Positions 3,001-32,250 of a DNA stretch of 64,000 nt are shown here, piece after piece. Made by a program: the position numbers and the translations under genes. Position 1 is the first letter of the stretch, and each line of letters begins with the position of its first letter. The notes under the pieces are model-generated. The model worked only from the letters and a program-made list of their open reading frames with translations, ran no database searches and was not told the DNA's origin. Source of the stretch: Onthophagus taurus (taxonomy: Eukaryota; Arthropoda; Insecta; Coleoptera; Scarabaeidae); contig NC_091971.1 of the NCBI RefSeq assembly GCF_036711975.1, positions 8,377,501 to 8,441,500 of the forward strand, written 5' to 3'.

Positions 3001-4441
3001 GCAAACGTGACATCTACCAGTCAAGTATTACAGACAGCCAGCTATACATGTGAGTGGACCAAAAGATGGAAGATAAAATTAAATTAATCATTTGACTATT
3101 AAAAAATTAAAGTTATATCATATAAATGGCTAATAGGAAGATATTAAGAGAACCATATCCAAGTAATAACCTAACGGAAAAGGAAGAAACCGAAAGGTAC
3201 GCAAAGAACCACGAAGAATCCCACCACCTAAATGAAAATGCAAAAGTATTTCAACTACTGGATAAACACTTAGTGTAGTGACGTATAAAAAGCAGAATAT
3301 TATATGGAGTGAGAGTGCAGTTATTGTTACAAAGAAATAAAAGAAACCACTGGACTAAATTATTTTAGAGTCTATCGTTGTTGTAAATTGTAAGAATTTA
3401 GATGTATATTAGTTTTAATTGTAGTAAAAAAAATTTCTTAATCTTACATGATTGTAGTTCTAACAACAAATTTGAGCAACCCATAAAAAATCATTAAATT
3501 TCCATATCGCCTCCATAAAACGGAAGTAAAAGCCGGCTTCTTCTTGACAGCTTCAATTTCCCATTCCTTTTCCAATTCATCGCCTAATTTGTTCGATTTA
3601 AAGTCATTTAATATTTCATAAACATCATCTTCAACGAGTTCTTTTTTTAAACCTTTCCGAAGAATAGGAAACGCATATCTAAAAAATTAATCAAAACATA
3701 AATTAATACCAACAAAAGTAATTTTGATCGGGTAAACAATAGTAGAATTAGTTGTAAAACGGGATTTGTTTTATCTAACCTTATAAAACCACGAATTTCG
3801 TTTATAATGGGTTTAAATCATTAATGTCATAAAATTTAAGGAGATACATAATCGATTTGGGATGGTTTAAATTTTTTCAGTTGGTTTGTTATCAGATCAT
3901 AGAATTTTTGTTTAAAGATTTTTTTTGATAAATCTATAAACTATTAAAGAAATGAAAATCAATAACTACATAAAAAATTGATAATCTTATTAAATTCAAG
4001 TATTATTAACTCAAAAATTAATACGTATTTTTGAAAATGCTTTATTTGATTGAAAAGGTAATAAAGTTTGTTCGTCAAAATTTCAAAAAGATGCTTTAAG
4101 AATTCAATTTTGGAGACAATTATTTTAATAGTTCTTTGTAGAATCAGACATTTGTAGCATCAAAAGAAAATGTTTGTTTAAATGTTGATGTTTATCAAAC
4201 AAAACGAATTTATTGCATTTATTTAATATTGATAATAAAAAAATTCTACTTATAATAAATTTTGATACGTCAATAATATTTTGATAATAAACGATTTTAT
4301 TAAAATACTAATAAACATCGTAATTTCGATATTTTCACTCAAAAATAAAAATAATTTTACTTACAAAAAGGTTATTAACGAGAAGATGCCAGCTCTAGCT
4401 TTCGGATTAACATCCCTTTTTCGTTCGCTCCCTTGAAACAT
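1..4441 (-). CDS. ABCC4/MRP4-like ABC transporter, copy A (3' part outside window)
   Basis: This is a full-type ABC exporter of the ABCC (MRP) subfamily, expected in the plasma membrane to pump organic anions and conjugates. Exons read on the minus strand: 4365-4441 (ATG at 4441), 3448-3678, 2238-2356, 1872-2180, 1663-1819, 361-1608 and 1-308. All are joined by GT-AG introns with frame kept, giving about 816 residues. The remaining TMD2, NBD2 and stop lie left of base 1. TMD1 carries the MRP4-type segment SLAEVTNGKIVTLMTKDV. NBD1 (exon 361-1608) has Walker A GEVGCGKST, signature LSKGQ (canonical LSGGQ) and Walker B IYLLDS, without the catalytic Glu, as is usual for ABCC NBD1. TMD2 starts with FLSYW split across the 361/308 junction. 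Orthology to vertebrate ABCC4 is by overall style; substrate is unknown. Copy B lies 3.6 kb upstream in the same orientation. Confidence 0.9.
2520..3370 (+). mobile_element. Degenerate jockey-type non-LTR retrotransposon fragment in an intron
   Basis: It lies antisense inside the 1.1 kb intron (2357-3447) of ABCC copy A. Broken reading frames on the plus strand give reverse-transcriptase motifs of jockey-clade LINEs: LPKAGKSPYDFKSYRPY from about 2735 (the LPKPGK...SYRPISL motif) and LATFADDTALLAV from 2959 (the FADD catalytic box), followed by a WTKRWKIKLN segment. Stops and frameshifts separate the blocks, so it is inactive. Ends were not resolved; I see no clear poly(A) tail or target-site duplication. 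Confidence 0.7.
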
Positions 4442-7400
4442 GATGATGAAGATCACGAATCATCAACTAGTTCAGAATAAGCAGAAACATCGGTTGATAT
4501 ATTGACTTGGTTTGAATAAAATATCTAATCTCGACGATTATCAACACAGAAGGCTAAAAAAATTCGAACACACCAAGTAGGAGATGCCATAATGTTTATT
4601 GTTCCCTTTAAGCCTATAGTCTAATTGTGTGTGGTCTGGTTAATTTTTTTTATCGAACGTTTTATTTATTGTTCGAAATTTTGCCCCGTAACCCGATCTA
4701 ACTTAAAAACGTGTGGTTTAATTAATTTATCAATTTATCACTGAGTTGTTAATGGGGACAAGAATGATAACGAATAACGTTTTCTTTATTCTTTTAAAAA
4801 AGAGGAAGAACAAAACATTGATTGCTTGTGCAGAATCAATGGTATAAATAAAATTGAAATCGTTTTTATTATCTTTGTTTACTTACTTATTATTAGTTGA
4901 GATTGTTTTTGTTTCTCTCTTTTCTCTTCCTAATTGTCTTTCAGTAATATAAATCAAAAACTTGTTTTACTTTTCCTTTTTATATAAAATAATAGGATTT
5001 TATTCCACACTTGTTTATTTAAATTTGGATTTAATTTAAGATTTAAATTACGATTAAATTAGGATTTTAAGTTTTATTGTAATGTTATAAAACTATAAAA
5101 TGAACTATTTTTGGATCTTTCACAATGAAAGTTTAAGAACAATCTTTGTGAAGACGTCAAAGGAACTGGGTATTTGTTCCTTAATCAGGATGTGATGCAA
5201 AACTTATCCAATTTATGGTATTATACGTGTGACACAGTTACAAGAAAATAGGATTTATTAAAATATAATAATCTCGATTAATTAACGATGATTTATTTGT
5301 ATTCACCTAATCTTAATATCAATAAATTTTTTTAATATTCTATCAAATCATCGTTTATGTACGAAAAAGTTTTTTTTTATAAATAATTTTTATGTCTCGA
5401 TTAATCTTCAATAGATAAGAAAATTTTTATGGATTTTCGATGACAAGACACAGAACCCAATTGCGCGTGTCATCAATTTATATCCGAACTTAACTTAATA
5501 ATGGTGACAACTTAAAAACATTGAAATAAGAAATAAATGAAAGGATAGATAACGATTTACTATAGATTACTTTTTGTGAACTTCAATACGATGTAGTTTT
5601 TAAATTTTAAATCTAACAATCTAAATCCAAAGATTAAAATAACTAAATCCCAAATATTTTACAGTAGGCAATTAAATATGAGAATAAAAGTAAAATTGCA
5701 CTGTCACATTTAATACTAGTATCATAAATTATAAAATCTGCCATAAAATAATAGTGCGTCTCTTTTAACATAGTCACCTTTAATCAGCTCATTTAAGCTG
5801 TAATCATAATTTTAAAATTTTTTATTAATTTCATTGTTTACTATGTATAAGTGAGTACAATAATAGCGTTAAAAGTTATGAGATGTAATAATTTTTTAAG
5901 GTAAAATAAATATTGAAAAGAAAATTTACAAACAACCTTCGCCGAGATCTGTTTTGAAAATAACAAAGTCTGAGAGGTTGTTTTCGTGGTCATATTGCAA
6001 ACACATCGTATACTTGCTATCTTCAAACATTCTCTCGGTCGTGTTTTGACTCAACAATAACGAGGTATAATGAGTTATAATTTAATCAATACGAAAATGT
6101 AACGTAATTGTATGTTTAATAAATAAAGAAAATATTTATCTAAATATATCATTCTAAGTTATACCTCTTTCTTAAATTATATTAATTAACAAAGTTAAAG
6201 ATGCTGTATCACAGTATTTTTGTATTTATTAAGTTTACATGGAGACAATAAAAACCGCGACTTAGTTAAATTTCTGCACTGTTTAAAATAAAAAGTTGTG
6301 AAAAGCATGTCCAATAAAAATAATGTTAACTAAGTATGAACAAGAAATTTTGTTTATTATTTTTTCCTTATTTATTTAAAACTCTGCAAAATAGATATAC
6401 AAAGGTGAGAAAAGTACGCTTACGCATTTCGTGAATAGATTCAATTAGTAGTTTTACAGAGTCAAAGGTAGAAGAAAAAATGATTCCAAATTATGCTTGG
6501 AGTCTGTACGAAAATATCTAAGACCTCATTACAAATTTGACCATTGTCCTTAACCTTTCCTCGATGAACCTCGTTGCACAATTCACCCAAACTGTAGTCT
6601 CATTGTAGACCTGAGCCACGTCTTCACCCCCTCTAAAACTGCTTTCAATGGAATAAATCGTTGGTGAAAAACTAATCGTTGAAGTTTAACCATCAAATAT
6701 GCTGGATTTGCGGAATATAACATGCTGGTGTCTTACTTCCTTTAAATTGACTTGTTAATGAACACATTTCGTTTAATATCCTACTTTCAACCTTTCTTTG
6801 TCTTCCTTTTCTACTTGTTTTAGACCTGTTGGTCTGTTGAGTTTGAAATTCGTAGTTGCAGTGACGAAAATAACTTGAAATTTAGGTTAATGTACAAAAT
6901 AATGAGAAAAAACAATAATACTTATGTGGAATATACACAATAATCAAAACATTTTAAAAGTAATTAAACGAGACATAATGTTATCTAAATAATTTTTAGA
7001 GTATAAAATTGCACTAACAATAAATACTCATAAACTAAAAGAATACTTAAAATAAATAATACTAATACAAATTTTGTAAAAGCTGTTGGAAATACTTTTT
7101 TTTTTATTTTTGACTGCGGCCATGTGAGGGAGGAAATAACCTCAAGCGAACAAGACAAAGATGTTGCAAGCTAGCCAAAGAGACCGAGAAGAATGTTCTT
7201 CGAAGAAACGCCCCCCGCCAGATTCCGGAGAATATGAGGAGAGGGGTTTTAGTGGGTCGGGGCCCCACACTATCTGGTCATCCAACATCCCAGGCCAGAC
7301 GTCAGTTTGCAGATTGAGATTGCGTTGGGTTCGGTTAGACTTGTCAGAAGTCAGAAAGAAGTTACGGATGCCATAGAAAGAATACTACTTTGAAGTGAAA

Positions 7401-8021
7401 CTGAGCGGGGCACATTGCGAGGTTAAAGAATGATCGATGGACCAAGAAAATTATGGAGTGGAGACCAAGATGACAAATTTAAGTGATATTCACACTAACG
7501 ATACAAGTTGCTCAAGTAATTATGGAAGTATTACAGTGTTTTATATCAGGAGAAACTCATTTGTCAGAAAATGATGGATTTATTCCGAACGGGTGCTTTC
7601 TCCTGTGAAATAAGCAATTTCGCAATTATTTCGTATACAAATTTTTTACCATGCCTACTGAATTACTTTGCCAAATAATGCACGAGGTACGATCATTTTC
7701 TCATCGTTGACATTCTCTGGGTGTTTAGTTCCTACATTTGCAACATCATTCTGTTCATTTCCAGAAACGTTATTTCCGCGTTTTTAAAATGTCAAAACAA
7801 TTTCTTCGTCAAGTGTCTACGCACAAGTCACATACTACACCAGTTCCAGAAAGTCTGGTTGATCTTCAAATAACAGCACCAAATGGCAGGGAAGGCATAA
7901 ATTTTGAATATTTTTATGATTTTTTACGTCTTTAAATATAAAAATATAAAATACAAAACAAATACAATCAATTTCAAACAATTTTATTAACAAATTTAGT
8001 CTTATAATTGTATGTTTTTAT
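4442..8021. other. Spacer between the two ABCC genes
   Basis: 3.6 kb of mostly AT-rich DNA between the start of copy A and the stop of copy B. Scattered open frames of 60-70 codons have no recognisable domain. A GC-richer block at about 7120-7450 stands out from its surroundings but encodes nothing I recognise. The 5' regulatory region of copy A should lie next to 4441, but no clear TATA box was identified. Confidence 0.5.
7983..7988 (-). terminator. Poly(A) signal of ABCC copy B
   Basis: AATAAA on the minus strand, 34 nt past the stop codon at 8022. This is the expected position for a short 3' UTR. Confidence 0.6.
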
Positions 8022-11000
8022 TCAAGAATCCATTTCCCAATTTCCTTGTGACACCATTTGATAGAATCTCGATTCGTAATCGTCCATTAAAACTTGCGGA
8101 TCATCAAATTCAACAACATTTCCATCCGAAATGACCATAACCCGATCTGATTTCATTACGGAGTGTAATCGATGAGCGATAGTTAATGTGGTGCAATTAG
8201 AAAATTTCGTTTTTATTGTATCTTGAATAAGATTGGCAGTTTTAATATCGATGTTAGCGGTTGCTTCGTCTAATACTAATATTTTATTTTTTCTTAACAA
8301 GGCACGTGCTAAACATATTAATTGTTTTTCGCCGGCACTAAAATTAGAACCACCTTCGTTTATTATACAATCCAATTGACCGGGAAGGCTTTCGATCGTT
8401 GATTTTACGTTAACCACGTTTAATGCTTGCCAAATATCAAAATCGCTGTATAAAACGTCCGGATCTAGGTTGCTTTTTAACGTTCCCGAAAATAGAACCG
8501 GATTTTGAGGAATAACCGAAATTGAAGATCTAACAAAGTTTAATTCAACCACATTAATATCAATGTCATCGATGTATATTGAGCCTGATTCGATTGAGTA
8601 TAATCTTAATAAAGTTGAAATAATCGAAGATTTTCCAGCACCTGTTCTTCCTATAATTCCTATTTTTTCACCCGGTTTTATAGAAAAATTAACTCCTTTT
8701 AAAATTAAATCGTTCGTTTTTGGGTATCTTAAACAAACATTTTTATATTCAATCTTTCCGCTTGAAGGCCAATCCGTTTTTGGTGCGATTCCTTGAGTAT
8801 TTTCGATTGGCACTTTTGTATATTCAAGGACACGTTCGACCGAGGTCATTTGGTTTTCTAATTCGGCCCATTGACGAATTCCCCATTGTAATAAACCGGT
8901 TAAACCTAAAGCTTGTGTTATTGCCAATCCAACGTTTTCAGCGGCCGTCGACGATGCAAAAATAATAAAACTTAACGTTATTGCTGTTAAATATAATGCG
9001 CATAACATGTCTAAAAAGAAACCGAACGCTCGATTTGTTGTCATATACATATAATAGGTTGAATAATGCAGATTTTGATGCTGATCGAATTGTAATGTTA
9101 GGATATTTTCAGCTTTGTTAGCTCTGATTGTTGTTAATCCTTCCAAAGATGCATTTAAATGACCAACAACAGGACTTCGAGCTAAAAAATAAATAAATAT
9201 TTTATAACAATTGTAGTTGATTGGTAAATATTAAAGTGGGAATATTTACTCATGCTATCTAATCTCTTTAAACTTCGACTTGTTGGTAAATAATAATGAC
9301 GGACAATAAATAAAATTATTCCAAAAGCAAGTGAAAGAATTGCGAAAACTAAGTTGACTTTTAAGATGAGTACTAATGATCCAATAAGTACAAAAAGAAT
9401 CTAAAAAAAAATTTAATTTAATTTATTTTTAAGTTATGTTTCAAAACTTACTCGAAGACACTCAAAGAAAATGTAAGGTATCATTTCATCAATGGTAGCA
9501 AAGTCTTTTGAAAACCGATTTAAAATATTCCCCGAAAGATTTGTATCAAAAAAGGACATTGTAGCTTTGACGATATTTGAAAATGTCGCTTTGTGTAGTT
9601 TTAGCGAAGCTCTACTTGTCAAAGAGAAGTATAAAAATGCTTTTCCAGTGAGAATTATGGCTGTTACGGCTAAAATGATCGAATACAACATTGGAATTCG
9701 AGATTTTTTTAAGGTGACGTCTTCATATTCGCTTAAAATCGTTGCGTTTGAATAATACGTTTCGTTTTTTATGAATTCGGAAAGTCGGTTGTAATCTTTT
9801 TCAACGCCTATCCTAAAAAATTTCTATAAATTGATTTTATAATATACATACGACTATTACTAGAACTACCACTAGACTAGTCTTTTGAAAGTGTTTGACG
9901 TTTAATATGCCATGTTGAACCTGCCTGATCTGGTTCCTAGAACACCTAAACTTGCAACACATCTAGATAAAATTTACTATGGAAACGGAAGTTGCATAAC
10001 ACTTATCTTTTCTGGATGTATTGGTCATGAAGAAGACAGAATTGGCAGTGTATCGGAAGAAGACATACACAAATAGGTATCTATGGGCTGCGTTCCATAA
10101 CCATGAAAATTTAACGAAGGAAGATGTATTTCAAAAGAATGGCTACATTATGAGAGATATTACGAAGGGAAGATACGGTAAGTAATCACTTCTTGCGCAA
10201 GCTAAATGGGGATGAATGGGAGAGATGGTATTGCGAGGTAATCAGAAACGATGAGCATAATGAGGGGAAAGTTGTAGAGGTAGATACGAAAGGAAAGGAA
10301 GGAGTGTATGCAGAAGGGGTTGGTTGAAGACGAAAGCCGCATGCCGAAAGGCAGGTCAAAATTGCAACGTGGCATCGGAAACATCAAACACTTTTTCTTC
10401 TAGTTCTAGATCTACTGTTAGTTCTAGAGTTAGTTTTAGTTTAAATGGTTTTATAATTTTTTAGATCTTACCAATGAGTTATAAAATAATCAAAATAACT
10501 CCCACCAGCTTGCGAAATAGCGCAAATTATTAAAAGCGAGAACATTCCTTTAAAACCACCCGCATAACTTAAGTATGTTTTGTAAACTTCGTTTTTGACT
10601 TTTCCAATTTCTTTCTTTTCTCCATATAATTTAGGTGATTGCAAATTTTTTTCTGATTTTAATAAATAATCTGTTTCTGTAGCATCCTCGTTTTCAAGGT
10701 CATCATTTTCTTCAATTTTATCAATTTTATGTTGGTTCGAAGTTATTTCATCAATGTCAATTCCTAAATCAACATTTCTTTTAACAAGTTCCTCGTAATT
10801 TCCTCTATCTTGAATTTTTCCGTCCATCATAACAATAACTTCGCCAACTTGTTGTAAGAATTGTATTTGGTGGGTACAAAATATAACTAATTTTCCTTTT
10901 AGGAAGTCTTTGAAGCTTTTAAAAATTTGATTTCCAACGGAAGAATCAACGGGTGCTAAAGGGTTATCTAATAGATAAATATCAGCTTTCTTATAAAGAG

Positions 11001-12984
11001 CTCTCGCTAAGTTAATTCTTGCTTGTTGACCTTTGCTTAAATTTAACCCTCTATCATTAACCAAGGTGTTATCACCTTTAGAAAAGTTTTCGAAATCAAG
11101 TTTTAAGCAACAAATTTTAATCACTTTTTGGTATCTTTTTTCATCCATTATGGAACCAAATAAAATATTTTGCCGAATCGTTCCAGGAAATAACCACGGT
11201 TCTTGAGAAGCATAAGAAACCGCGCCGTTTACAGTAACATAACCATCATTTAGAACGATATCGTCAAGAAGTAATCTTAACAAGCACGATTTTCCACTTC
11301 CAACGGGTCCAGTTAAACCATATAAACCAACATGAAGATTTAACGTGATATTTTCCAAAACAGTTTTTGATTTAATCACGGACGCCGAAGCATTTTTCAA
11401 AATGATTTTAGGCGGCCCAGAATTTTCTGACGTATCTTTCACTTCCGGTGTTAACATGAAGGCGGAAATTCGTTTAATCGATGAGTATAAATCCGCTATT
11501 TGAGAAATTCCAACTGGAATGGCTACGGTTAAAACGGATCTTAATGAACCATAACAAGAAAGAATTACGAAAGCTTTTTCTGCTGTTATTCGATTCCCGA
11601 GGAGATAATAAGAAATTAAACAGACGAAAATTGAGCATCTTGTGCTTAAATCTCCTATCGTTAACATTGTTGCTTTTAAATAAAAGATTATTTTTAGTTT
11701 TGATATTTCACCTCTAAAAAATTTTTTTTTAAATTAAACTTAAAAATTATTTTATTAATTTACCTTCTTATAGCAAAAACACGCTTTGAAAAAAATATTT
11801 CCCAACAATAAGTCTTAATAATCCTTATGGTCGATAAAACTTCTTGGATCAATCGAATTCTTTCATCAGATTTAGCAGCTGTTTTCAATCGATTTTTTGT
11901 AGTTTGTTTTCCGACCCAAACTAAAAATCATCTCATTATGTAACAAAGTCAAAATTATTTTTTTCTATGAAATCCTTACATTGAAATGGAATTAACAACA
12001 ATAAAAATCCAACACCAAGAATTGCAGAAATTCCAATTTGTTGATACATAACGTAAGTCATTAAAGCGACTTGAATCACTCCAACCCAAATATCGTGAGA
12101 GAGTATAATTGAAAAATCAAATAAATTAACATCTTTACTAATTAACGTGACGATTTTGCCATTTGTCACTTCGATAAGTGAAGAAGTACTGAGTTTTAAT
12201 GATTTTCTATAAATTAATGAGCATAAACCGGTTCGAATTTTTTGTGCCATCTGAGTTAAATAAAGCATGTAACCATGATTGTAAATCGTTTGTAAAATTG
12301 TTATTCCGATTAAAAGAGTTGCGTAAATGTAAGCTTGCGATTTTGTTAGATTCGATTTTGTGTCGAAATATGCAACCAAACGACCAATTACTAAAGGCCT
12401 TGTAATCCTGGAAGGAAAATACTTAACTTATGCAACTTTATTTGAATTTTGTTTTATAAAGAAATGTTCTTACATAAAAGTTGTTCTTATAACACCTTGG
12501 ATTAATCCACATGTCATATATTCAACGCCAAATACTCCAAATAAAACTCTTAAAAGTGATGGCTTTGGGTTTTTTAATTCTTTTTTCCATTGATTTTCAA
12601 ATTTTGACCCTAATTTTTCTGATTCATATCCTTTTAAAAGTTCGTAAATATCATCTTCTTCTAATTCTTTTTTTATTCCTTTTTTAAATATTGGATAAGT
12701 AAATCTAAAAAATTAAAAACGGTGATGACAAACCGAATTGTTATTTTTTTCTAAAGTATTAGCAGGATTAAAGTGAATAGGTAATAAAAAGTTTTATTTT
12801 ATTGGAAATACTCTTTAAATAGATAATAATTTTTAATACAATAGGTTTTAAAAACATATAAAGCATTCTTTATGTTTTTTAGATTTATATTAATTTATTG
12901 TACTTACAGGAATAAAAGCATAGAAATTACGCCGGCTTTTTCTCTTGGGTTTGTTTCTCTTTTGGCGGTACATCCCTGGTACAT
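8022..12984 (-). CDS. ABCC4/MRP4-like ABC transporter, copy B (complete)
   Basis: Complete tandem paralogue of copy A. Exons on the minus strand: 12908-12984 (ATG at 12984), 12474-12704, 11980-12407, 11764-11920, 10472-11713, 9452-9812, 9250-9400 and 8022-9181 (stop). They sum to 3807 nt, 1268 residues, close to the usual MRP4 length. The order is TMD1, NBD1, TMD2, NBD2. NBD1 has Walker A GPVGSGKSC, signature LSKGQ and Walker B IYLLDN. NBD2 has Walker A GRTGAGKSS, signature FSAGEKQLICLARAL and Walker B ILVLDEATANID with the catalytic Glu, so ATP hydrolysis is expected mainly at the site using NBD2 Walker B, as in other ABCC proteins. Exon boundaries match copy A except that 11980-12407 is a single exon where copy A has two. 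Expected substrates are organic anions or conjugates; this is family knowledge, not shown here. Confidence 0.93.
9846..10445 (+). mobile_element. Penelope-like retroelement relic with CTAG-rich flanks, in an intron
   Basis: It sits in the TMD2 intron (9813-10471) of ABCC copy B. On the plus strand, 10021-10189 reads LAVYRKKTYTNRYL, which matches the VYRKPTHT.RYL block of Penelope-like reverse transcriptases. Just before it, LDVLV in the expected place is reached after a one-base indel near 10007. Both sides are flanked by CTAG-rich stretches (about 9850-9875 and 10398-10440) resembling the MITE interior at 38345-38649, so this may be a composite insertion. It is dead. Confidence 0.5.
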
Positions 12985-16026: not shown

Positions 16027-18899
16027 ATGCCGTCTAAAATAATGGAAATTGATCACATTTCGTACATATTCGGTAGTTTTGCTCGACGTCGTCAAAGTCA
16101 GAATGTCTCATCGACCAAAAGGAAATCAATAGAAACTCCTAAAGTTAATCACGATCGATCAAAATCGGCACCGCATAATGTAACTAAATCGGAAACTTCT
16201 TGTAATCGTACAAAAAGTTTTTGTAATATTTCATCGTCTCAATTAAACTGTCCGTTATGTCATCAAGAATTTTATGAACCAAGAATTCTTCCTTGTTTGC
16301 ACACATTTTGTATAACGTGTTTAAAACAATTAGAAGAACAAGCTTTCAATCAAATTAAAGGTAAGAATTTATTTATTCTTTTTCACTTCCGTTCTTTTTT
16401 TTAAGAAACCGTAAAAATTTTATCCTTCTTATGAGATTAGGGGTGAATAAAAACCCATATAACCGCAGTTGGTCGGCACGATTATCCAATTATTCCATTA
16501 CGAAAACTATTTACTGGCTTTGTGCATTATTACCTCCAATAAAAACATTTCTGACATTTTCTTTTCCATCTTTCTTTCTATTTTTTTTTAGATGATAGAA
16601 GAAGCACAGTCACTATCGATTCAAATAATAAAGAACGACGCACCACATCATCCAACGAAAGAACACACCAATCTACAACGATACAATGTCCCCATTGCGG
16701 ATCCGACCACCAATTACCATCATCTGGCGGCGTTAAATCGTTCCCACTCAATTATTTAATTCAGAATCGTCTCGTTTTAGCTGCCTTAAACTCGCAAAAT
16801 ACCAAATTATTATGTGATCTATGCACAGGAGATAATATTGTATGTTAATGACAAAAAATAATAAAAGAACATAAAATTTTTGTTAAAATTAGGGCTTTTA
16901 TTTTAGGCTTCATGTAGGTGTTCTCAATGTGCGTTGAGTTTATGTAAAAATTGTGCCGAAAATCATTTAAAACATAAAACCAATTTAAATCACGAAGTTT
17001 TAAGATTAGAAGATGCGAGAAAAAAAGGTATAACTACTGTGAGAAGACAAGTTATGTGTCCGAATCATAAAGATATTGAGTTATCTATTTTTTGTTCAAC
17101 TTGTTGCCAGGTAATTGTCAGGAGTTTTCCACATATCTTTTTCACATTAAGTATTTATTTTTTCAATACCCTTTTACAAGTCTTCGTTTACATTGAAACC
17201 ACTAATAATACCAAACATTCACTTCCTCAAATCGTTATTGCTTCCCGAGTATCCGTTTCCGCTTTGCAAAAATAAACTTTACACATTTCGAGATGAGCCA
17301 CATGGCCAACAAAATGGGTTTAAAGTGTTAAACTACAAAGACATAAATTATAATCTAAACTATTTTAAGGTTACTTGTCGAGAATGTTTTACGATGAATC
17401 ATAAAGGACATATAAACGAATCGATTACAAGAGCGGCAAAGATATACGCTTCAAACATAAAAATGGCGTTGGGAAAAACTAGAACTATAGCTGAAAGATC
17501 CTCGGGAACTTCGTTTAAATTACAGGCGACATCGCAAAGAATCGAAAATCATTGTAACCAAGTTCAGGGGGATATCGATAAGTTTATTGAGGCTTATATT
17601 AACGCGATCGAACAACATCGGAGAAAGCTTCATCAAGAAGTTCAGATTGCGAAGATTGAGAAAGTTCATAAAGTTGACGTTCAATTAAATGATTTGCAAA
17701 GGCAGTTACATTTGGCGAAAGAAATTTTAGCGTTTGCTGATGATTTATTTAGAGAAAGTAACGAAGTTGAATTTTTAACTTTAGTTAAACCGATTTTGAG
17801 AAGATTAGAAGTTTGTAATCAAATTCACATTCCTGAGTTACCCATTTCAGAAAGTTTACAATTTTTACCAGAAGAAGCTTCGCAAGAATCATGGAATTCT
17901 TGTCCTTTATACGGAGTTGTTACAACGCAAATTGTTTCACCATCTCATTGTTCACTTCTTCCAGAAGGTAAATAATTAATATTGTTAATTTCCCTCCCAC
18001 ATGTCTTCAATAAATTACCCTGCTTTCAAAATACATAATAAACAAAGTTGACACGTTGTTGTGGTTTTAATTTCCGTTTAGCATTTCACTTTCTGTCTTG
18101 CTTTTAAATTTTCCGTGAAGGGCATCGAAACTGAAGCGGAACAGAAGTGGTACAGAAGCGGAAACGCACGTGTTTTCTCGTTTTGTTGTGACGTGTGATC
18201 CTCTCTGCCAATAAATTCCAAACCGAGTTCCCCTTTTTTATTGCCTTCGTTCCCCTATTTCAAAACCCATTGCTTCTTACTTCGTTAACGAGACCCGTCT
18301 AAAGTAAATGGAAGACGAAAATTTACGACTCTTTTTTATGTTATAGGTCTACAAAACCTTCGAGTTGGAAAAAAAGCCGAAATTTTACTGGAGCTTTATG
18401 ATAAAACCAATACAGCGCTTCAACGCGGTGGCGAAGTTGTTTATGGAGAGGTGAAATATAAGGAACCCGGTTCAACGAAAACTATTAATATGCAAATTGA
18501 AGATAAGAAAAATGGAACTTATAAATTAAGTTTTATTCCTGATGTTCCAGGGAAATATTTTTTATCTGTAACAGTTAAAGGACAGCCAATAAAAGTAATT
18601 ATTACCAATAGTTTTGAAAATTAATTTGTGGTTTTTTCTTTTAGGACAACCCAACAATAATAATTGTTAGGCCATTTAGGCCTCATTATGGCACATATCA
18701 TTGTTGTAGTTTTTGCTCTAGCGGTGGATTAAAGGATGCTATGTGTGGGTGTGGTGGTAAAATGCCTGGTGGTTATAAAGGATGTGGTCATGGTCATGAA
18801 GGGCACCCAGGAAGGCGACATTGGTCTTGTTGTGGAAGCACTTTAGAACATTCAGAATGTCAAAAGAGGAGTTCCACGCATTATCAATTTACGTTATAA
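16027..18899 (+). CDS. TRIM45: TRIM45-like E3 ubiquitin ligase (RING, B-boxes, coiled coil, filamin repeat)
   Basis: A tripartite-motif protein, probably a cytosolic ubiquitin ligase. Exons: 16027-16360, 16592-16839, 16907-17110, 17370-17967, 18347-18594 and 18645-18899. They sum to 1887 nt, 628 residues. A Ser/Thr/Lys-rich head (1-74) is followed by a RING starting CPLCHQEF at residue 75 and ending CPHCG near 144-148, with a long insert before the last Cys pair, a TRIM45 trait. Next come B-box 1 (about 185-215), B-box 2 (CPNHKD...CSTCC...CRECF...HKGH, about 243-280, split by an intron), a helical BBC coiled coil (about 290-420), a filamin-type Ig repeat (about 462-544), and a Gly/His/Cys-rich tail with CGHGHEGHPGRRHWSCCG. 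The domain order and this tail are what I recall for TRIM45, hence the symbol. Its 3' end converges on the micro-exon gene. Confidence 0.9.
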
Positions 18900-18903
18900 G
18901 TGA

Positions 18904-18918
18904 TTTATTGTATTTATT
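18904..18918 (-). terminator. Two poly(A) signals of the micro-exon gene
   Basis: AATAAA occurs twice on the minus strand (18904-18909 and 18913-18918), 66-80 nt past the stop at 18984. Cleavage 10-30 nt further would fall inside the last coding exon of TRIM45, so the two mRNAs would overlap antisense. Confidence 0.5.
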
Positions 18919-18942
18919 TTTAAAAAGAAATGTATTTTAATT

Positions 18943-18983: not shown

Positions 18984-20649
18984 TTATTCATCATCGTCGT
19001 TGTCAGGCATTCGTCTATAAGTAGCCCTAAAATTAAATTTGTTATGGTAATTAATATTATGTAAGATTATAATGGAAATATTACTTATTTTTTTCGTCCA
19101 CCCTAAAATTAAAAATAAATAAATCGATTAGTTTATAAAATAAAATAACTTACTGAATAGTGTTGTCTACTTCATCAGATTTCAAATTTAAGGGAACATC
19201 ATTTAATCTAAAATTAATTAAAATCGTACAAAGTAATTATTTTAAATAAAATGATATTAATTTACTTAGAATTGTCTGCTTCATCAGATTTTAAATTTAA
19301 GGGAATACCATTAAGTCCACTTCTTAATCTAAAATTGAATTTTAAAGTCGTACAAATTAATTACTTTTTTGAAATAAAATTTTAATTTACCTCGCTTTAC
19401 CGTTATTTTTACGCTTCGCATTTCTTAATCTCATTACTGATTTGCTTATGGGGAGTCTACGAACAAAAATTAATGTGTATCATTTTATGTTTACATGTAA
19501 AAAAGAACTTACGGAATAGAAGGCAAAGATCCTGGATCGCTAAAAGTCGTTTTGGGTTAGAATAAATTAAAGTTTATGTGTAGCACAATAAATATTAATA
19601 ATGGAGGTGATGTTTCAAAAGTAATCTGCTAAACGAATATGCTAAATCATGTACATAAATGATTAAATAATTAAAAAATTGAAAATTAGTGTAGAGTCGC
19701 TTGAATTCGTCGTCTTAGTAACCGAGGTTGGTTGCGGCCGAGACGCTACAATCGAGATCGTCAAAGAAGAAAACAAGATTAACCTACATCAAGCATTTTG
19801 GATAATCGACGAAGGATGTTCATCTTTACAAGGTTCAGTTGATCCAAAAGCTACAACATAAAGTCAAGAATACTGGCACGATTGTAATAAGGTGTAAATC
19901 CAATCATTATTACAATATGAACGGAACTTTAGCGGAGTTTATGAGAGAGCCAATAATAGATAATGTAACGAGAAACGTTACTATAACTTCATTATCCTTT
20001 GCATACGAAGAACACCACCGTCAAGCCAAACAATTTAGCTGAATACTTTTGATACAAGTTGTATAAAAGAAACTAACTAAAGGAGATTGCAAAAATAAAT
20101 CTATAAGTAAAGTTAAAAACTTACGCATAAGAAGTTAAACCTAACTAAAAATAAAAGAAAATTAAATAACTAAATTTGATAAGACTTACATTGACGGAGA
20201 TATGTTACCACTAAAAGAAAGATGGCGTTAAAAAATAATTATAAAAAAAAGTGTAATAAAGTTACTTGAGAAAATCTGTTGGTGAAGGCATATCATCTCC
20301 TCTAAGAATTATAAAAAATGATAAATAACTTTGGGACATTCATATTTATAACTTACTCTGAATTTAAAACATAAAATTCTCTAAAAAGAAAAAAGTAAGA
20401 AAATATAGTTTTAAAACTGATTTTGTGAAGTTTTATACAAACCCATTTATAAAATAAGTTGTTCGACCTCTTAAAAGAAACCAATTTTTAATGAAATTTT
20501 AATAAAAAATTTTAAAGATAAACTTACGGTGCATCATAAACAGCTAAGCTAATAACAAATAAATAATTATTTTTTAAATCTAACATAAAGACATAATCTT
20601 ACACAGTTGAAATAATTCCAAAAATTATACCAACTTCCAGAAACTTCAT
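18984..20649 (-). CDS. Secreted micro-exon protein (12 exons, 148 residues), unknown family
   Basis: I do not recognise the protein family. Exons on the minus strand: 20603-20649, 20528-20548, 20443-20469, 20357-20380, 20266-20301, 20190-20210, 19513-19539, 19391-19456, 19266-19328, 19154-19207, 19085-19102 and 18984-19026. Lengths are 47, 21, 27, 24, 36, 21, 27, 66, 63, 54, 18 and 43 nt; total 447. Every intron is GT-AG and phase 2, and every internal exon is a multiple of three. Ten of the eleven introns are 51-62 nt. Exon 1 encodes MKFLEVGIIFGIISTV, a signal peptide probably ending in the LA of exon 2. The mature part is short-peptide modules (GRTTYFING, EFYVLNSE, GNISPSI, DPGSLPSIP), a basic segment with RLRNAKRKNNGKAR, two related exons with PLNLKSDE, and an acidic end (DNDDDE). 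It has no cysteines. Transcription is not shown, but 11 consecutive frame-preserving junctions make chance very unlikely. Confidence 0.85.
19266..19328 (-). repeat. Micro-exon 9, tandem duplicate of exon 10 (19154-19207)
   Basis: Exon 9 (63 nt) encodes GIPLNLKSDEADNS and exon 10 (54 nt) encodes DVPLNLKSDEVDNT in the same frame. Both begin ATTAA on the coding strand, and the flanking intron ends are alike. This is a local duplication of an exon with its splice sites; exon 10 lacks nine bases (three codons) near the start. Confidence 0.85.
19560..20160. other. Unidentified insert in the only long intron of the micro-exon gene
   Basis: Intron 6 (19540-20189) is 650 nt while all its sisters are 51-62 nt, so about 590 nt appears inserted. 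On the plus strand there are two overlapping open frames of 60-67 codons (19679-19861, 19839-20042) with GC content above the surroundings, which suggests the remains of a mobile element. I found no recognisable transposase or reverse-transcriptase motif and no terminal repeats. Confidence 0.4.
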
Positions 20650-20833: not shown

Positions 20834-21341
20834 TTTAATATCTCGTTACAAATTAAATGTAAAAATTTTTAACAGTAAAAATTAATATTTACAAGAGTCG
20901 CACGCCGCTTTTTCGCTTATTGGCACAATCAGACCCCAATGTGACTAGCAGCAGCAGCAAATCGACGATTCATTTCCTTAACCGTTGTATTAAGATTTTA
21001 ACTTTTAATTAAATCGCCTAAGACGGCGTGCTTTAACTTCACCGAAAATTATTAATCACGACACGATATTGAGATTTTCCTAATCTACACCATTTTTCTT
21101 TAAAAATACACTTCTCTCTCTCTCTCATTTTACTTTAGTTCATATACAATATTTACAATACAAAAATTTTTGTGTAGTTTTTTTTAGGTAAGTACGACGC
21201 GACCGAGTGAGTTTATCACAATAAAGTTCTTTTTCATTTTTCGATCTTGGCGTAAAACACTTCTAATTTAATATAAAAGAAAAGTTCGTTTTTAGGTATT
21301 TCCGGGATATTTTTATACAATTTTTTTTATGAATTTATTTG

Positions 21342-24300
21342 TTACGAAATTTGGAATGATTGTGATCCTATGGTGCTCGTAATCCATCGCCTTACATCAT
21401 CATTTATCGAAGAATAAAGAGCTGGATGTCTACTTCGTCCACAATTTCCATGGTGGCTTAATACCCCATGAAGCTCTAATTTACTTGTTGCTTCTGAGAA
21501 GCACATCAAAGGAGCTCCTTCGTCATTCTAAAACAATTTTATTTTAATTAATTTTTTAAATTTGATATTAATTATTTAAGTTATTACATAACATGGTGTA
21601 TTATCTGATTCGGTGTATCCAGCACAAATCTTCTCCTTGTTTAAGAAACCGTTGTAATGATCAGTTCCATTACACGTTGTTTGTTCAATTATAGGAACTG
21701 GTAGATAATGTAATTGTCTTTGAACGTTTGTTTCTATATTTTGAAAATCAAAATTAATTTGTGATAACAAATTTTTTTAATTAAACCTACCTCCTGGTTT
21801 ATTATATCCCCATCCGGCTGTTACACATAATTGTCTTTCTTCAATATCTTTTGCTGGAAGACAAATTGTGCTAACATTATTATTTATTACCAATGGAGAT
21901 TTTAATTTGATAAGAACCATATCGTTATTGTACTCGAATTGATTGAATTTTAACTAAAAAAAAAATAATAAAATTATAGTAAAACCTCGATATAATTGAG
22001 TACGCCTGAAGACGCACTGTTAAGATCGAAACTTTCTAGTTGTAAGTCTAGAGTTAGTTCTAGTTTTAGTTGTTATTCAGTACTAGATAGTTGTACATTT
22101 TTATTGTAGAACTAATACTAAATCTAGACTAGCAACAAAAAGATCTTACTTGAGGATGTGATATTATATCTTTAACAATTCCAATTTGAGTCGATGAATT
22201 ATCACCATTATTAAAATAAGGCGATCCTGCGTATACAACCCAATCTTTTACTGGAACATGTTTAGATTGTTGTTCAATCATACAAGAATAACTTGCTAAA
22301 ATCCACGATGGTGTTAATAAACTTCCGGTACATTGGATATTTAATTTTTTATTATATAAAAGCATAACGCTGGGCCATTGGGTTGTTGACGCTGAATTAT
22401 TTGAGATAATCCTAGCTTGGATATCTTGAGGTGTTGATGTTCCGCAAGCTAAAAATGATTTATTATTTCAAAAACATTTTTTTGTTTATTAATTCTTACT
22501 AAATTCCTGGCAAGTTATACTAATAACTTGATTACAACTTGAAGTTTCTTCTAATTGTGTTAAAATGTTTTCGGTGTATTCAATGATCGGTTTTAATCTA
22601 AAATATTTTTCGGTGAAATTCGCTGGGAAATCGACTTCTTCGGCGATTATCGCTCGTTCAAAACCCATTTTTTGGCAGAAAAGATTTGAGAAGGTACTGT
22701 TCCATCGATCCGTACAAACCGGAAGCCAAGTAGTGTTCATTGATTGTACCATTAGAATCGATTGATTCATCGTGGTGTTATCATCCATAATCGTAGCGTT
22801 TAAAACGTCGGTTTTAACACAATTCCACTCGTCGGAATGATCAGCACATTGTTCAATACCATCACATCTCCCAGAAATGTTAATACACCCACCTCCCATT
22901 GAACATTTAAATTGATCAATCGAACAACCTAAATTAAAAATAAATAAATAAGAAATTCCCCGTTAATTATATTAAACCAACCGCATAATTTTTCATCTTC
23001 CCCATCCATACAATCCATTTTTCCATCACATCTCCAAGTTAAAGGTACACAAGCATCTTGTTGAACACAATGGAATTCATCGTTTCTGCACGATTTTGGG
23101 TGGCAATTTCTTTCGTCGATTCCACCAGGGCATTGAGCTTTTCCGTCACATTTCCACGCCAAAGGAATACATCTTCCATTAATTCCGCATAGGAATTCGT
23201 CAAAGTTACATTTCCAATTTTCTTTGAATAAAATCAAAAATTAATTTTTTCCTATTTAAAAATGAATAAACTTACCACATTGAATCTCATCGCTTTTATC
23301 ATTGCAATTATAAATTCCATCACAAACTAAATGCCTTTTCAAACATTGTCCACTTGTACATTGGAAATTATTGGGACATTCCATTTCAATGCAACCTGTT
23401 TCATCGGAACCATCGGAACAATCATCGACTGAATCACATCGATCGCTTCTTGGGATGCAATAACTTCCGTCTCTTAACGAGGTTCCGTTGAGACATTGGA
23501 ATTGTCCGATTGGGCATCTTGAAAAACCGGTTAAACTAAATCCTTCAGTGACGGGTTTAATTTCTTCAACTTCAAATTGTTTATCCAATTTAGGTTTTTT
23601 GTCGTAACTCTTTTTCTCACCAAGTGATTTCTTTGAAGCTTTTTCAACTGAGTAATCAGAATATTCAAATTCATCTTCTTTAATTCCATCGTGATCATTC
23701 TTGTTATGAACGTTATTAATTTGATGATTAACTTTTTCTAAAACATTGGCATCTTCGTTATTGATGATATTAAGATTGTTAAAATATTCTAGATTGTTTA
23801 ATTTGTGATCATCATCTGATTTTAGTTCTTCGTCTAATTTGGTTTCTCCTTCCGGTTTTAATGATGATGAAGGAAGGGGAATAACTGAAAGGAAGGTTTC
23901 ATCGTCCCCTCCAGGTTGGATAATATCTTTAGGGGTGAATTCAACGTCATGGATACTTTCTGTCGTTTTTAAAAGAATCATTGATGGTGTTGTCACATCT
24001 TCGATTGATTCAGAAACAGCGTACATTCTCCTATTTGTTGTTACAGCGTTATCAAGCATCATAGTTGTTTCAGGAATTTCTTCGGATGTTGTTGTTTCAA
24101 AAGGAACGGTATCATTTTCGATTATATTAATAATTTCTGTTACAGTGTGAATTATTTCTGCATGAACCGTAGTCATATCCTCAATTTTGACGTTGTGGCC
24201 TCTTATTCCAACAGATCCTCCGTTTGGTTTCGTACTTTTTCCAAATGTTGTTGTTTCCATCGCCAATAAATCTTCAGCACTTGTTCCGCTTTCTATAATA

Positions 24301-27300
24301 TTGGAATCATTTAATTTTGTTGTTGTTAAGTCAAAGATAATTTGTGGGTTTGTTGTTTCTATCATTTCTGTTGATGTTGGAAAATTCTCAACCTCATTCG
24401 TTTCAGCTTTATCAATCAATTTTGTGGTCATTTCATCCATCATTGTTGTTGTTTCAACATTTTGTTCACTAATTGGTTCTGTAGTTTCAATATTCATTTC
24501 AGCATTAAAATCACCTTTAGTTTCAGTCTCTGTATTTATTTTTATGTCAGAATCGGTTTTATTCTCAATTTCATTTTCAGTTTTACTTTCAGTATCATTT
24601 TCAGTTTTATTCTCAGTTTCATTTTCACTTTCAGATTCATTTTCAAAAGATGAAATTGTTGTTGTTGGCAATTCATGTGAATCATATAATATTCCATAAC
24701 TAATAGTATCATCATTTTTGTATGAGTCAAAATATTTATTGCTATGAACATTATTGATAATGTACGGACTTAATGTCGTTTGTGTGTGGCTTTTAATTGT
24801 CGGTTCTTGCTCAAGTTTTTTTGTCGTTGTTTTTTCCTCAACCGCAGATAAAATTTCGTTAAAAGATAAATTTAAATCATTTTGCTGTTTAATTTCTTCC
24901 TCATGAACTTGGTTATCATCATCGGAATTTAATGGAACAACAGATAATGTTATATCCGTTGGATTAATTTCGTTTTTATTCGTTGTGTTCATTTGGTCAT
25001 TATCTAATCTTGGCGGAACTGTTATTTTAGGAACTTCAAAGTATTCCTTGTGGTCAATATCGTGCATATCAGAATGAATAATTGTATAATTTTCAATTTC
25101 CGGTAAAAATGGCGACATTTGTTCCATAATATGTTCATGATGATTTTCTTCATGATTATATTCAGTACTTGTCACATTTGATTCTTCAATTTGAGCAGAC
25201 TCAGTATGATTCATTTGATTCGCATTTTCAGTTTGGTTAGAAATAACACTAAAATCAGTGCTATTCTGCACATTTTCAACTTCATTGTTAATTAAAACTG
25301 TTGTAACGTATCCTTCGGTGGTTTCAGAACTTGTATTGATAAAATTAAAATTTTCCGTAGAAATTGTGCTATTATTAACATTCAAAACAATTCCATCGTT
25401 TAAATTTTCAAAGATATCTTCATCGTCCAATACTGGCTTAAATTCGTTTTCATTCACATCTTTTAGCGTAGAAACTGCTTCTGCCACAGCAACTTCCGTT
25501 TCGTTCAAATTTTCTTTAATTGTTCCAAATTCAGTCGTCATTGGAACATCTATGTCAGATGTTTTACCATCTCGTAAATGAAACTGTTGTAACGTGACTT
25601 CTGTCTTGTTTAAATCTTCTTCTCTTGATAATTGAGGAATTGTAGTTGTTTCCATTTCATCGTTCAATGTTGATAGTTCCGTTATTGATTCCATTTCTGT
25701 TGTTGTTTCTGTACTTTCATTCAAATTTGACATCGAAGAAACATCAACTGAAGATGTTAAAAGTTCTTCTCGAATTGTTGTCTGTGGAATTATTTCTTTA
25801 ATAAGAATTTCTTCTTGATTAACCGAAGGCTTTATTTCTGGTAAACTAGTTAAGATTTCTTCCATTTCCGTTGTGGTTCTTATAAGATTATCATCCTTTA
25901 ATGGAATTTCATCGTTAAAAACTACAGAATTAATTGATTCCGTTATTTCTTCCTGTTGTTTTTCTGTTGTTATTTCCTCTTTCATAATTATTACGGGAGG
26001 TATAACCTCCGGTTGAGTTGTTTCCATTACTGGTACTTGCATAGTTGTGTCTCGAGCTTCCGTAAGCATTACATCAACAGGATTTTGACTTGTTTCAACA
26101 GACGAATTTGATTTTGGTTGCTCAGTGTTTAAATTTTGATTAACGTCTTGAGATGGGAGCATCGTTGTGGGTTCATCCACGTCCATTGTTGTGGTTTCTT
26201 TTATTTCAGTATGAACTGGTAGTAGAAGTGGTGATGTTTCTTCATGTGATGGTTGTGTTGTTGGTTCTGGAGATGTTTCAACAATAATGTTAGGTTCTGG
26301 TGATGGCTCAGGTTCAGGAGAAGGTTCCGGTTCTGCTGTTGGCTCTGGTTCAGGTGATGGCTCAGGTTCAGTGTATGGTTCAGGTTCGGCTGTTGGCTCT
26401 GGTGCTGGTTCTGGTGATGGCTCAGGTTCAGGAGATGGTTCAGGTTCAGCTGTTGGTTCGGGTTCAGATGATGGTTCTGGTTCTGCTGATGGTTCAGGTT
26501 CTAATTTAATATTCGATTCTGTTTTAAGTTCAGGTTCTGCTGTAGTTATCACTTCAAGGATTGGTAATAATTCTACATGTGATTTATGTTCAGATTGTGT
26601 TTGATAATGTTGATCTTGTTCAGGTTGTGTCGTTGATTCAGGTTCCGAGTCATAAACAGATTTGGGTTGTGAGTCTACTTCATATACTAGCTTTGGCTCT
26701 GGTTCTGGCTCCGGTTGTGGCTCTGGTTGTGGCTCTGGTTCTGGCTCCGGTTGCGGCTCTGTTTGTTGACCTACTTCTGGATCTAACTCAGATTCAAGAT
26801 CAATTTTTGGTTTACGGTCATGTTCAGGTTCAGATTCAGATTTAGGTTCTGGTTCAGGTTCAGGTTCAGGTTGAGATTCAGGTTCAGGTTCAGGTTCAGG
26901 TTCAGGTTCAGGTTCAGGTTGAGGTTCAGGTTCAGGTTCAGGTTGAGGTTCAGGTTGAGATTCAGGTTCAAGTTTAGGTTCAGGTTCCGATTCAGATTCT
27001 GCTTCAGCTTCATGTTCTGCTTCAAATAAACCATGTTCATTCGATTTTGACGGTAACCCAACAGCACCTACACAAATAAAAGTTAATATAATCCTAAAAA
27101 TCATGAAGCAACCTTACCCAATTGAGGTTTATTTTCTGTTTCGACTTCATCTCCTGCATGAACGCATGATTTCATATCTAGATCAAGTTTTTCCCCAATT
27201 GGACACCCACAAACAAACGTGACTGTTGTATAATCGAACGAGCAAAACTTTTCACATCCATTATTACCGTGCTTACATACATCATGGATTTTTTTCGTTT

Positions 27301-30966: not shown

Positions 30967-32250
30967 ATGCAGTGGTTCAAGAAAGAAAGTTGCTTAATTT
31001 GTGCATTTAAACCTGTGGTAGTCTTTCATTTTTGGGTAATTCCTTTTATGTATAAATGCGATCATAGAAATGGATATATTTTTTATCAACAAAAAAATTA
31101 TTTGATTTTATTATCGATAAGTTTATTCATTTCGCTCGTTACTTCGTTAATATTGGTTACAAAGGAATTATTCATAGAAAGATTAAGAATAACTGAGATA
31201 TGGATTAATACTCCTTATATAATTGGGGGATTTATTTATAGTTATATATTTATTCATATTTTTTTAAAACAACACTTAATAGCTAAATTATTGCAAACTG
31301 AATTGTATGAATACACGAATTATTTTAAGAATGATTGGTATTTGAACTGTTTAATTAACGATTTTCGGAAAGTTGTCTACAGAAGTATTTTATTTATAAT
31401 TGGATTTGTTTTAACTTATGAAATATCCTGCTATTTTTGCACTAACAGCATTGCGTTTTTAATATTAAACACCACATATATTTATATATTTTACGCTGGT
31501 AACACGACAATATTTTGCATTGGAATGATGGGAATATCAACTTTGAAATATTCTTATTTAGAAATCAAAATATTATTAAAAGACAGATTACGAGGATGCG
31601 ATTATATCGATGATGTTTTGCAAAAATTTGGTAGTTTTCGCACAAAAATTTATTTATATCAGGAACAACTTAATACATATTTGGCAAACGTCCTTCCTAT
31701 ACTTATACTAAATGGAATTTTAACAACAATTATGGCGTTTTGTGTAATTATTGAGTGCACTAATATAAAAGATTTTTTTTCTCATATGTTTTCGAGAAAT
31801 TTAATTAATTATTGTATGACGTTAATTTCTTTTGGTTTATGTGCTAATGTGTATAATACTGCGAATCAAATGGTAATAAAAAAACTGCATTTTTATGATT
31901 AACAAAATTTTTATTTTAGGATTTAGAGTTTGTTGCGTTTATAAATAAATTCCCGTTATCGAAATTATCACAATGTGAAATTGACAAAGCAAGTTAAAAA
32001 ATAAGAAAAATTAAGTAGTATTAATTTTATTTTTGCAGATTGAGCAGTTAATTTATCACATAAACATACAACCTTATAAAATAAGCTATATGGGAGGAGA
32101 AATATTATCATTAAAGACTATGACAAAAGTAAGTTAATTCATTTTCTTTAATAAAGTAAGTTAAATAATAAAATTGTTTTAATTTAGGCTCTTCAATACG
32201 GAATAACTTACACCATTGTTTATATTCAAATGTATTATTTCTATGAATAG
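30967..32250 (+). CDS. Insect gustatory receptor (7tm_7 family)
   Basis: Chemoreceptor channel subunit with seven predicted helices, in the membrane of taste neurons. Exons: 30967-31872, 31920-31988, 32039-32128 and 32188-32250. They sum to 1128 nt, 375 residues, the usual size. The last exons encode FPLSKLSQCEIDK, IEQLIYHINIQPYKISYMGG and TYTIVYIQM. The last matches the family signature TYhhhhhQF in TM7, with Met for Phe. The frame between exons 2 and 3 is kept only with a GC-AG intron: AAA|GCAAGT is the donor (31989), while the ordinary GT two bases on causes a stop. A poly(A) signal AATAAA lies at 32275-32280. It is a single gene with no tandem sister in this window; the ligand is unknown. 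Confidence 0.88.

Follow-up and report, generated by a model that had tools for sequence, protein, structure and literature searches.

Genes that encode secreted proteins in many very short exons have been described from schistosomes and from certain plant-feeding insects. According to PMC10526429, the exons of the micro-exon genes (MEGs) of Schistosoma are 6-81 nt long, and most of these lengths are multiples of three. Bicycle genes are described from aphids, phylloxerans and scale insects, and PMC9168663 reports none in three outgroups; in the same source, the non-aphid homologues also lack obvious CYC motifs. Here we describe a gene, found in the dung beetle Onthophagus taurus, that has a comparable exon design; membership in the MEG or the bicycle family is not claimed for it. 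The reading that we consider probable is that of a protein-coding gene of O. taurus, probably spliced constitutively, with an extreme exon design and a cysteine-free, apparently secreted product of 148 aa.

The DNA analysed (the window) is a stretch of 64,000 nt of contig NC_091971.1. When the gene was recomputed from the sequence, 12 exons were obtained on the minus strand between positions 18984 and 20649, with a total of 447 nt, that is, 148 codons and a stop (Table 1). All 11 introns are GT-AG introns of phase 2. The ten internal exons measure 18-66 nt and are multiples of three without exception, and ten of the introns are only 51-62 nt long. A preliminary description, made from the letters alone, had given the same exon number, total length, codon count, intron phase and exon symmetry, and every figure agrees. 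Its main claim, that an insect has a protein-coding gene made of micro-exons, holds as well: the host is a beetle, and the spliced 148-aa peptide is identical (100% over 100% of its length) to the NCBI entry "uncharacterized protein [Onthophagus taurus]" (P0001), the one match in a search of 5.8 billion proteins at E<=10 with 37 candidates. The entry comprises a single product with one member sequence and no isoforms. The gene is already annotated in O. taurus, though uncharacterised. As had been pointed out, lists of open frames miss exons of this length, but the gene did not escape annotation.

Table 1. Features of the micro-exon gene and its surroundings in the window
Feature	Position in the window	Strand	Remarks
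Exon 1	20603..20649	-	47 nt; start codon ATG and, by eye, the greater part of the signal peptide
Exon 2	20528..20548	-	21 nt; by eye, likely site of signal-peptide cleavage
Exon 3	20443..20469	-	27 nt; donor GTTTGT weak, score -2.8
Exon 4	20357..20380	-	24 nt
Exon 5	20266..20301	-	36 nt
Exon 6	20190..20210	-	21 nt
Possible alternative terminal exon of 4 nt (T TAG)	20141..20144	-	inside intron 6; predicted only
Intron 6	19540..20189	-	650 nt; the sole long intron
Exon 7	19513..19539	-	27 nt; acceptor weak, score -4.0
Exon 8	19391..19456	-	66 nt; encodes the basic stretch of the protein
Exon 9	19266..19328	-	63 nt; tandem duplicate of exon 10, with intron
Exon 10	19154..19207	-	54 nt; tandem duplicate of exon 9
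Exon 11	19085..19102	-	18 nt
Exon 12	18984..19026	-	43 nt; stop and acidic C-terminus
Poly(A)-signal-like hexamers	18904..18941	-	ATTAAA from 18941, AATAAA from 18918 and from 18909; sequence match only

Part of intron 6 (approximately 19716-19809) matches a repeat that is present in spaced copies on other contigs of the same genome (G000:C10:7581481-7584901, C11:32753320-32754087 and C2:5068772-5068814). The three copies on C11 are spaced 347 bp apart.

The structure was compared with chance by means of a chain finder, which joins an ATG exon, micro-exons of uniform phase and a stop exon, using generic splice weights. For phase 2 on both strands and a penalty of 3, the chain at the locus scores 31.2, and none of 100 dinucleotide-shuffled versions of the window exceeds 11.6; at a penalty of 4, the corresponding values are 25.2 and 8.1. 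In 264 kb of real sequence (the window and 100 kb on each side, both strands, three phases), the runner-up among 697 chains reaches 10.9, and a single chain besides that of the locus has at least five exons (score 3.7). Under standard settings, to which the shuffle comparison refers, the best chain at the locus contains five of the 12 exons (1, 2, 4, 5 and 6) and, behind another acceptor, a terminal piece of 4 nt that is absent from the annotated protein. Under relaxed settings, the best chain at the locus contains nine of the 12 exons, with a score of 38.0, the next chain having 18.2; these settings also produce chains with as many as nine exons at other places in the 264 kb. The full chain of 12 exons is not recovered by this simple finder with its generic weights, and several splice sites of the gene score poorly. 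The GC content of the exons is higher than that of the ten short introns (0.338 versus 0.165, Fisher p = 2.5e-10). The next best chain (10.9) lies at G000:C6:8472999-8475354 (+), probably in an ordinary gene; in the translation of its relaxed version there is a stretch that we take, by eye, to be serpin-like.

Comparison of exons 9 and 10 accounts for part of the uniform phase. The two exons are 84% identical over 51 nt, and the introns preceding them, 8 and 9, agree in 53 of the 55 bases aligned (z 6.8, 0 of 1000 shuffles). Indels between the exons measure 3 and 12 nt, all multiples of three; those between the introns measure 1, 2, 3, 1, 2 and 1 nt. Small as these numbers are, in-frame indels are as expected of coding sequence. 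The similarity shows that one exon-intron unit was duplicated in tandem to give exons 9 and 10 and the introns before them. Their equal phase follows from this event, since a duplicated unit copies phase 2. Duplication of this kind is one route to a uniform phase without selection for splicing variety. More of the gene may have grown by duplications of symmetric exon-intron units, the phase being copied each time. However, only one clear pair exists among the exon units and one among the introns, so duplication is not established as the general origin. Among 66 pairs of exon units, 9/10 stands out with a score of 78; the pair 8/10 is next with 39, random pairs (up to 1000) having 28 as their top 1% and 49 as their maximum, and this score may merely reflect introns 8 and 9. 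Similarly, just one of the 45 pairs of short introns, 8/9, is clearly related; the pair 8/10 (z 2.7, 11 of 1000) is lost on correction. An introner-type origin of all introns was rejected on the same count of one in 45. Intron 6, searched for further hidden phase-2 exons, yielded one poor candidate (score -2.7). Substitutions between exons 9 and 10 (6 of 51) do not clearly exceed those between the neighbouring introns (2 of 55; p = 0.15). Positive selection on the duplicate exons was rejected on these numbers, and they give little support to the fast evolution that had been proposed for the protein.

At the N-terminus of the protein, MKFLEVGIIFGIISTVLA is a signal peptide by eye, and exon 1 stops within it; the hydrophobic leader ends with LA, again by eye. 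The signal peptide would thus correspond to exon 1 and the beginning of exon 2, so that the earlier equation of signal peptide and exon 1 is right for most of its length but misplaces the likely cleavage site. The mature chain would consist, in this order, of a short N-terminal part, a proline-rich stretch, the basic stretch of exon 8, repeats and an acidic tail, exons 9 and 10 encoding two repeats of a PLNLKSDE type. It contains neither cysteine nor tryptophan. The basic stretch, KR and RR pairs, and the acidic repeats and tail are visible in the sequence, and the isoelectric point is 7.98 for segment 74-148 and 4.05 for segment 19-73. No Pfam family was found at E<=10, and a single PDB match (E 0.94) was taken as chance. 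AlphaFold2, run on the single sequence, predicted three low-confidence strands in residues 17-38 with a mean pLDDT of 47.6. The protein might, with low confidence, be largely unfolded; low pLDDT is weak evidence of disorder here because the prediction used one sequence.

With the Schistosoma MEGs of PMC10526429 the beetle gene shares a leader (by eye), a small product and short exons in multiples of three. In contrast, MEG introns are given there as 0.1-5 kb, versus 51-62 nt for ten of the 11 beetle introns and 650 nt for the remaining one. The general MEG motif of that source, which follows the signal sequence and includes a tryptophan, is absent from the tryptophan-free beetle protein; LFL, the mark of a motif variant in one MEG clade there, is absent from it by eye. 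PMC10526429 counts 35 MEG genes, versus one such gene found here, for which no isoforms are known. The suggested likeness to schistosome MEGs therefore fails on intron length and motif, while the short symmetric exons do match. The nearest known design is that of the bicycle genes, which, as portrayed in PMC9168663, likewise combine an N-terminal hydrophobic leader (in the beetle protein, by eye) with many small internal exons of the same phase and with orphan sequence. Unlike them, the micro-exon protein has no CYC motif and no cysteine, no paralogue of it was found in searches insensitive to diverged micro-exons, and its host is a beetle and not a plant-sap feeder.

For bicycle genes, a classifier based on structure only, a GLM with published coefficients and a cut-off of 0.72, is available (PMC9168663). 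Applied to the beetle gene, it returns p = 0.9989 if "phase 2" denotes the usual intron phase and p = 7e-8 if it denotes the GFF phase. The wording in PMC9168663, "start with codon position 2", permits the GFF convention. Because the convention is ambiguous, the result was counted neither way, and the classifier, whose outcome flips with it, was set aside as a test of membership. The match with aphid bicycle effectors in uniform phase 2, on which the preliminary description had relied, hangs on the same convention, and the CYC motif is absent. The case calls for caution with structure-only classifiers and phase conventions before homology is assigned to micro-exon genes.

Several other explanations of the locus were considered. 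Deep homology, which would make the gene a member of the bicycle effector family, could appeal to p = 0.9989 under the usual meaning of intron phase; under the GFF convention, however, the gene is "phase 1" with p = 7e-8, the protein without cysteine can have no CYC motif (although non-aphid homologues lack obvious ones too, PMC9168663), the search for paralogues in the species' own genome found none, and that source reports no bicycle genes from its three outgroups. We regard such homology as hardly credible. An annotation artefact, that is, a wrongly predicted gene with no real protein behind it, would be consistent with the result that the 37 candidates at E<=10 include no homologue from another species, yet it would have to explain the shuffle and 264-kb tests, the contrast in GC content between exons and introns, the in-frame indels between the duplicated exons, and the fact that the NCBI protein coincides exactly with the chain of the preliminary description. 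It is very improbable, and the micro-exon gene is very probably a real gene of rare architecture. The basic stretch of exon 8 makes a small-peptide precursor a serious rival. In such a precursor, the basic stretch or other segments would be excised at basic sites, and the acidic repeats would be spacers, which would suit the KR and RR pairs, the acidic repeats and tail, and the contrast in isoelectric point between segments 19-73 and 74-148. On the other hand, no dibasic pairs border the repeats (by eye), no Pfam family was found, and there is no homologue to reveal a conserved core, so that we consider a precursor unlikely.

The remaining alternatives concern splicing. The preliminary description envisaged combinatorial splicing, in which the skipping of symmetric micro-exons, in numerous combinations, would make the secreted protein variable. 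All 1024 subsets of the internal exons do keep an open frame, and exon 3 with its weak donor and exon 7 with its weak acceptor could be prone to skipping. However, uniform phase together with the absence of stops in split codons already yields this compatibility, which is therefore not evidence of use. In PMC9225289, splice sites across short introns are reported to tend to pair with the nearest partner, and for human genes, weak sites at short introns are connected, under intron definition, with intron retention (PMC1831480). By this reasoning, the introns of 51-62 nt point to splicing by intron definition: if the short introns are recognised as units, exons of 18-66 nt would be joined reliably without exon definition, and exons on the scale of 18 nt would mostly be joined constitutively. 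Failure of intron definition would typically appear as intron retention and not as exon skipping; here, retention of any single intron leads to a premature stop (11 of 11). Intron definition and the single database product speak against combinatorial skipping, and combinatorial diversity is, in our view, unlikely. A more limited variation would be a regulated end in a gene of two modules, in which use of a different acceptor within intron 6 would lead to a short secreted form (about 59 aa, exons 1-6) and the long form adds exons 7-12. Intron 6 is the sole long intron, the acceptor of exon 7 is the weakest of the 11, and the chain finder prefers an end at 20141..20144, but the database search gave the 148-aa form only; a regulated end of this kind seems quite unlikely.

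As to the function of the probably constitutively spliced product, we weakly favour a place in a gland or seminal secretion, of which it would be a lineage-restricted component. Among 45 accessory-gland genes of Catharsius molossus, 33 are secretory, and 22 of these 33 are novel (PMC8382682). This is again a dung beetle with lineage-restricted secreted proteins without known homologues, and its novel secretory genes make a seminal or gland role plausible, no more. Unlike the O. taurus gene, those genes were found by expression and in another species, and exon structure is not treated in the available text of PMC8382682.

Evidence for a recent origin is weak. No homologue outside O. taurus was found at E<=10 among the 37 candidates, in a search that is weak for micro-exons. 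Within the species' own genome, a DNA search with the exon 9/10 region returned no paralogue. A protein search at E<=10, which runs exon by exon and is insensitive to diverged micro-exons, returned five matches, three of them to exons of the gene itself and two weak ones (E 1.71 and 9.06); the scan for similar structures covered the 264 kb. As a control, the TRIM45-like protein of the adjacent gene was used as query; at E<=1e-50 it retrieved 56 proteins, itself among them. Among the names listed, the only scarab outside Onthophagus is Holotrichia oblita (382 aa, 61% identity over 68% of the query), and other beetles are 36-50% identical. Close relatives are thus scarce in the database, which is why absent relatives say little about the age of the gene. 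Assemblies of O. sagittarius, O. binodis and Digitonthophagus gazella are reported in PMC10942260 and PMC12902608. In the literature, a secreted micro-exon gene of a beetle was not found among the matches listed, subscription journals and bioRxiv being outside the scope. One speculative and, we think, improbable extension is that dung beetles, like aphids and schistosomes, independently evolved a class of secreted proteins encoded by same-phase micro-exons, which grew by exon-intron duplication and serve in a contest-driven secretion, the present gene being the first recognised member and the others being hidden because they share structure and not sequence. If it is true that a beetle reached the micro-exon secreted design independently, this design, known from aphids and schistosomes, would be a recurrent outcome, and one open to study in a beetle kept in the laboratory.

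The neighbourhood in the window contains several other genes. Tandem open frames for ABC transporters occupy 309-12379 (-), with PF00005 in both of the two scanned. A 311-aa open frame at 30967-31902 (+) resembles insect chemoreceptors by eye and has no Pfam match at E<=0.001. The TRIM45-like E3 ligase gene at 16027-18899 (+), whose protein is named as such in O. taurus (P0002), and the micro-exon gene are arranged tail to tail, their coding ends being about 84 bp apart (by eye). Just upstream of the micro-exon gene and on the same strand, approximately 21100-27104 (-) appears to be one mosaic gene, with a 1282-aa open frame of Pro-Glu-rich repeats and LDLa, followed by LDLa and SRCR/hepsin-SRCR and, by eye in the translation, serine-protease-like pieces at its end. 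Its product resembles a protease of the corin/hepsin type.
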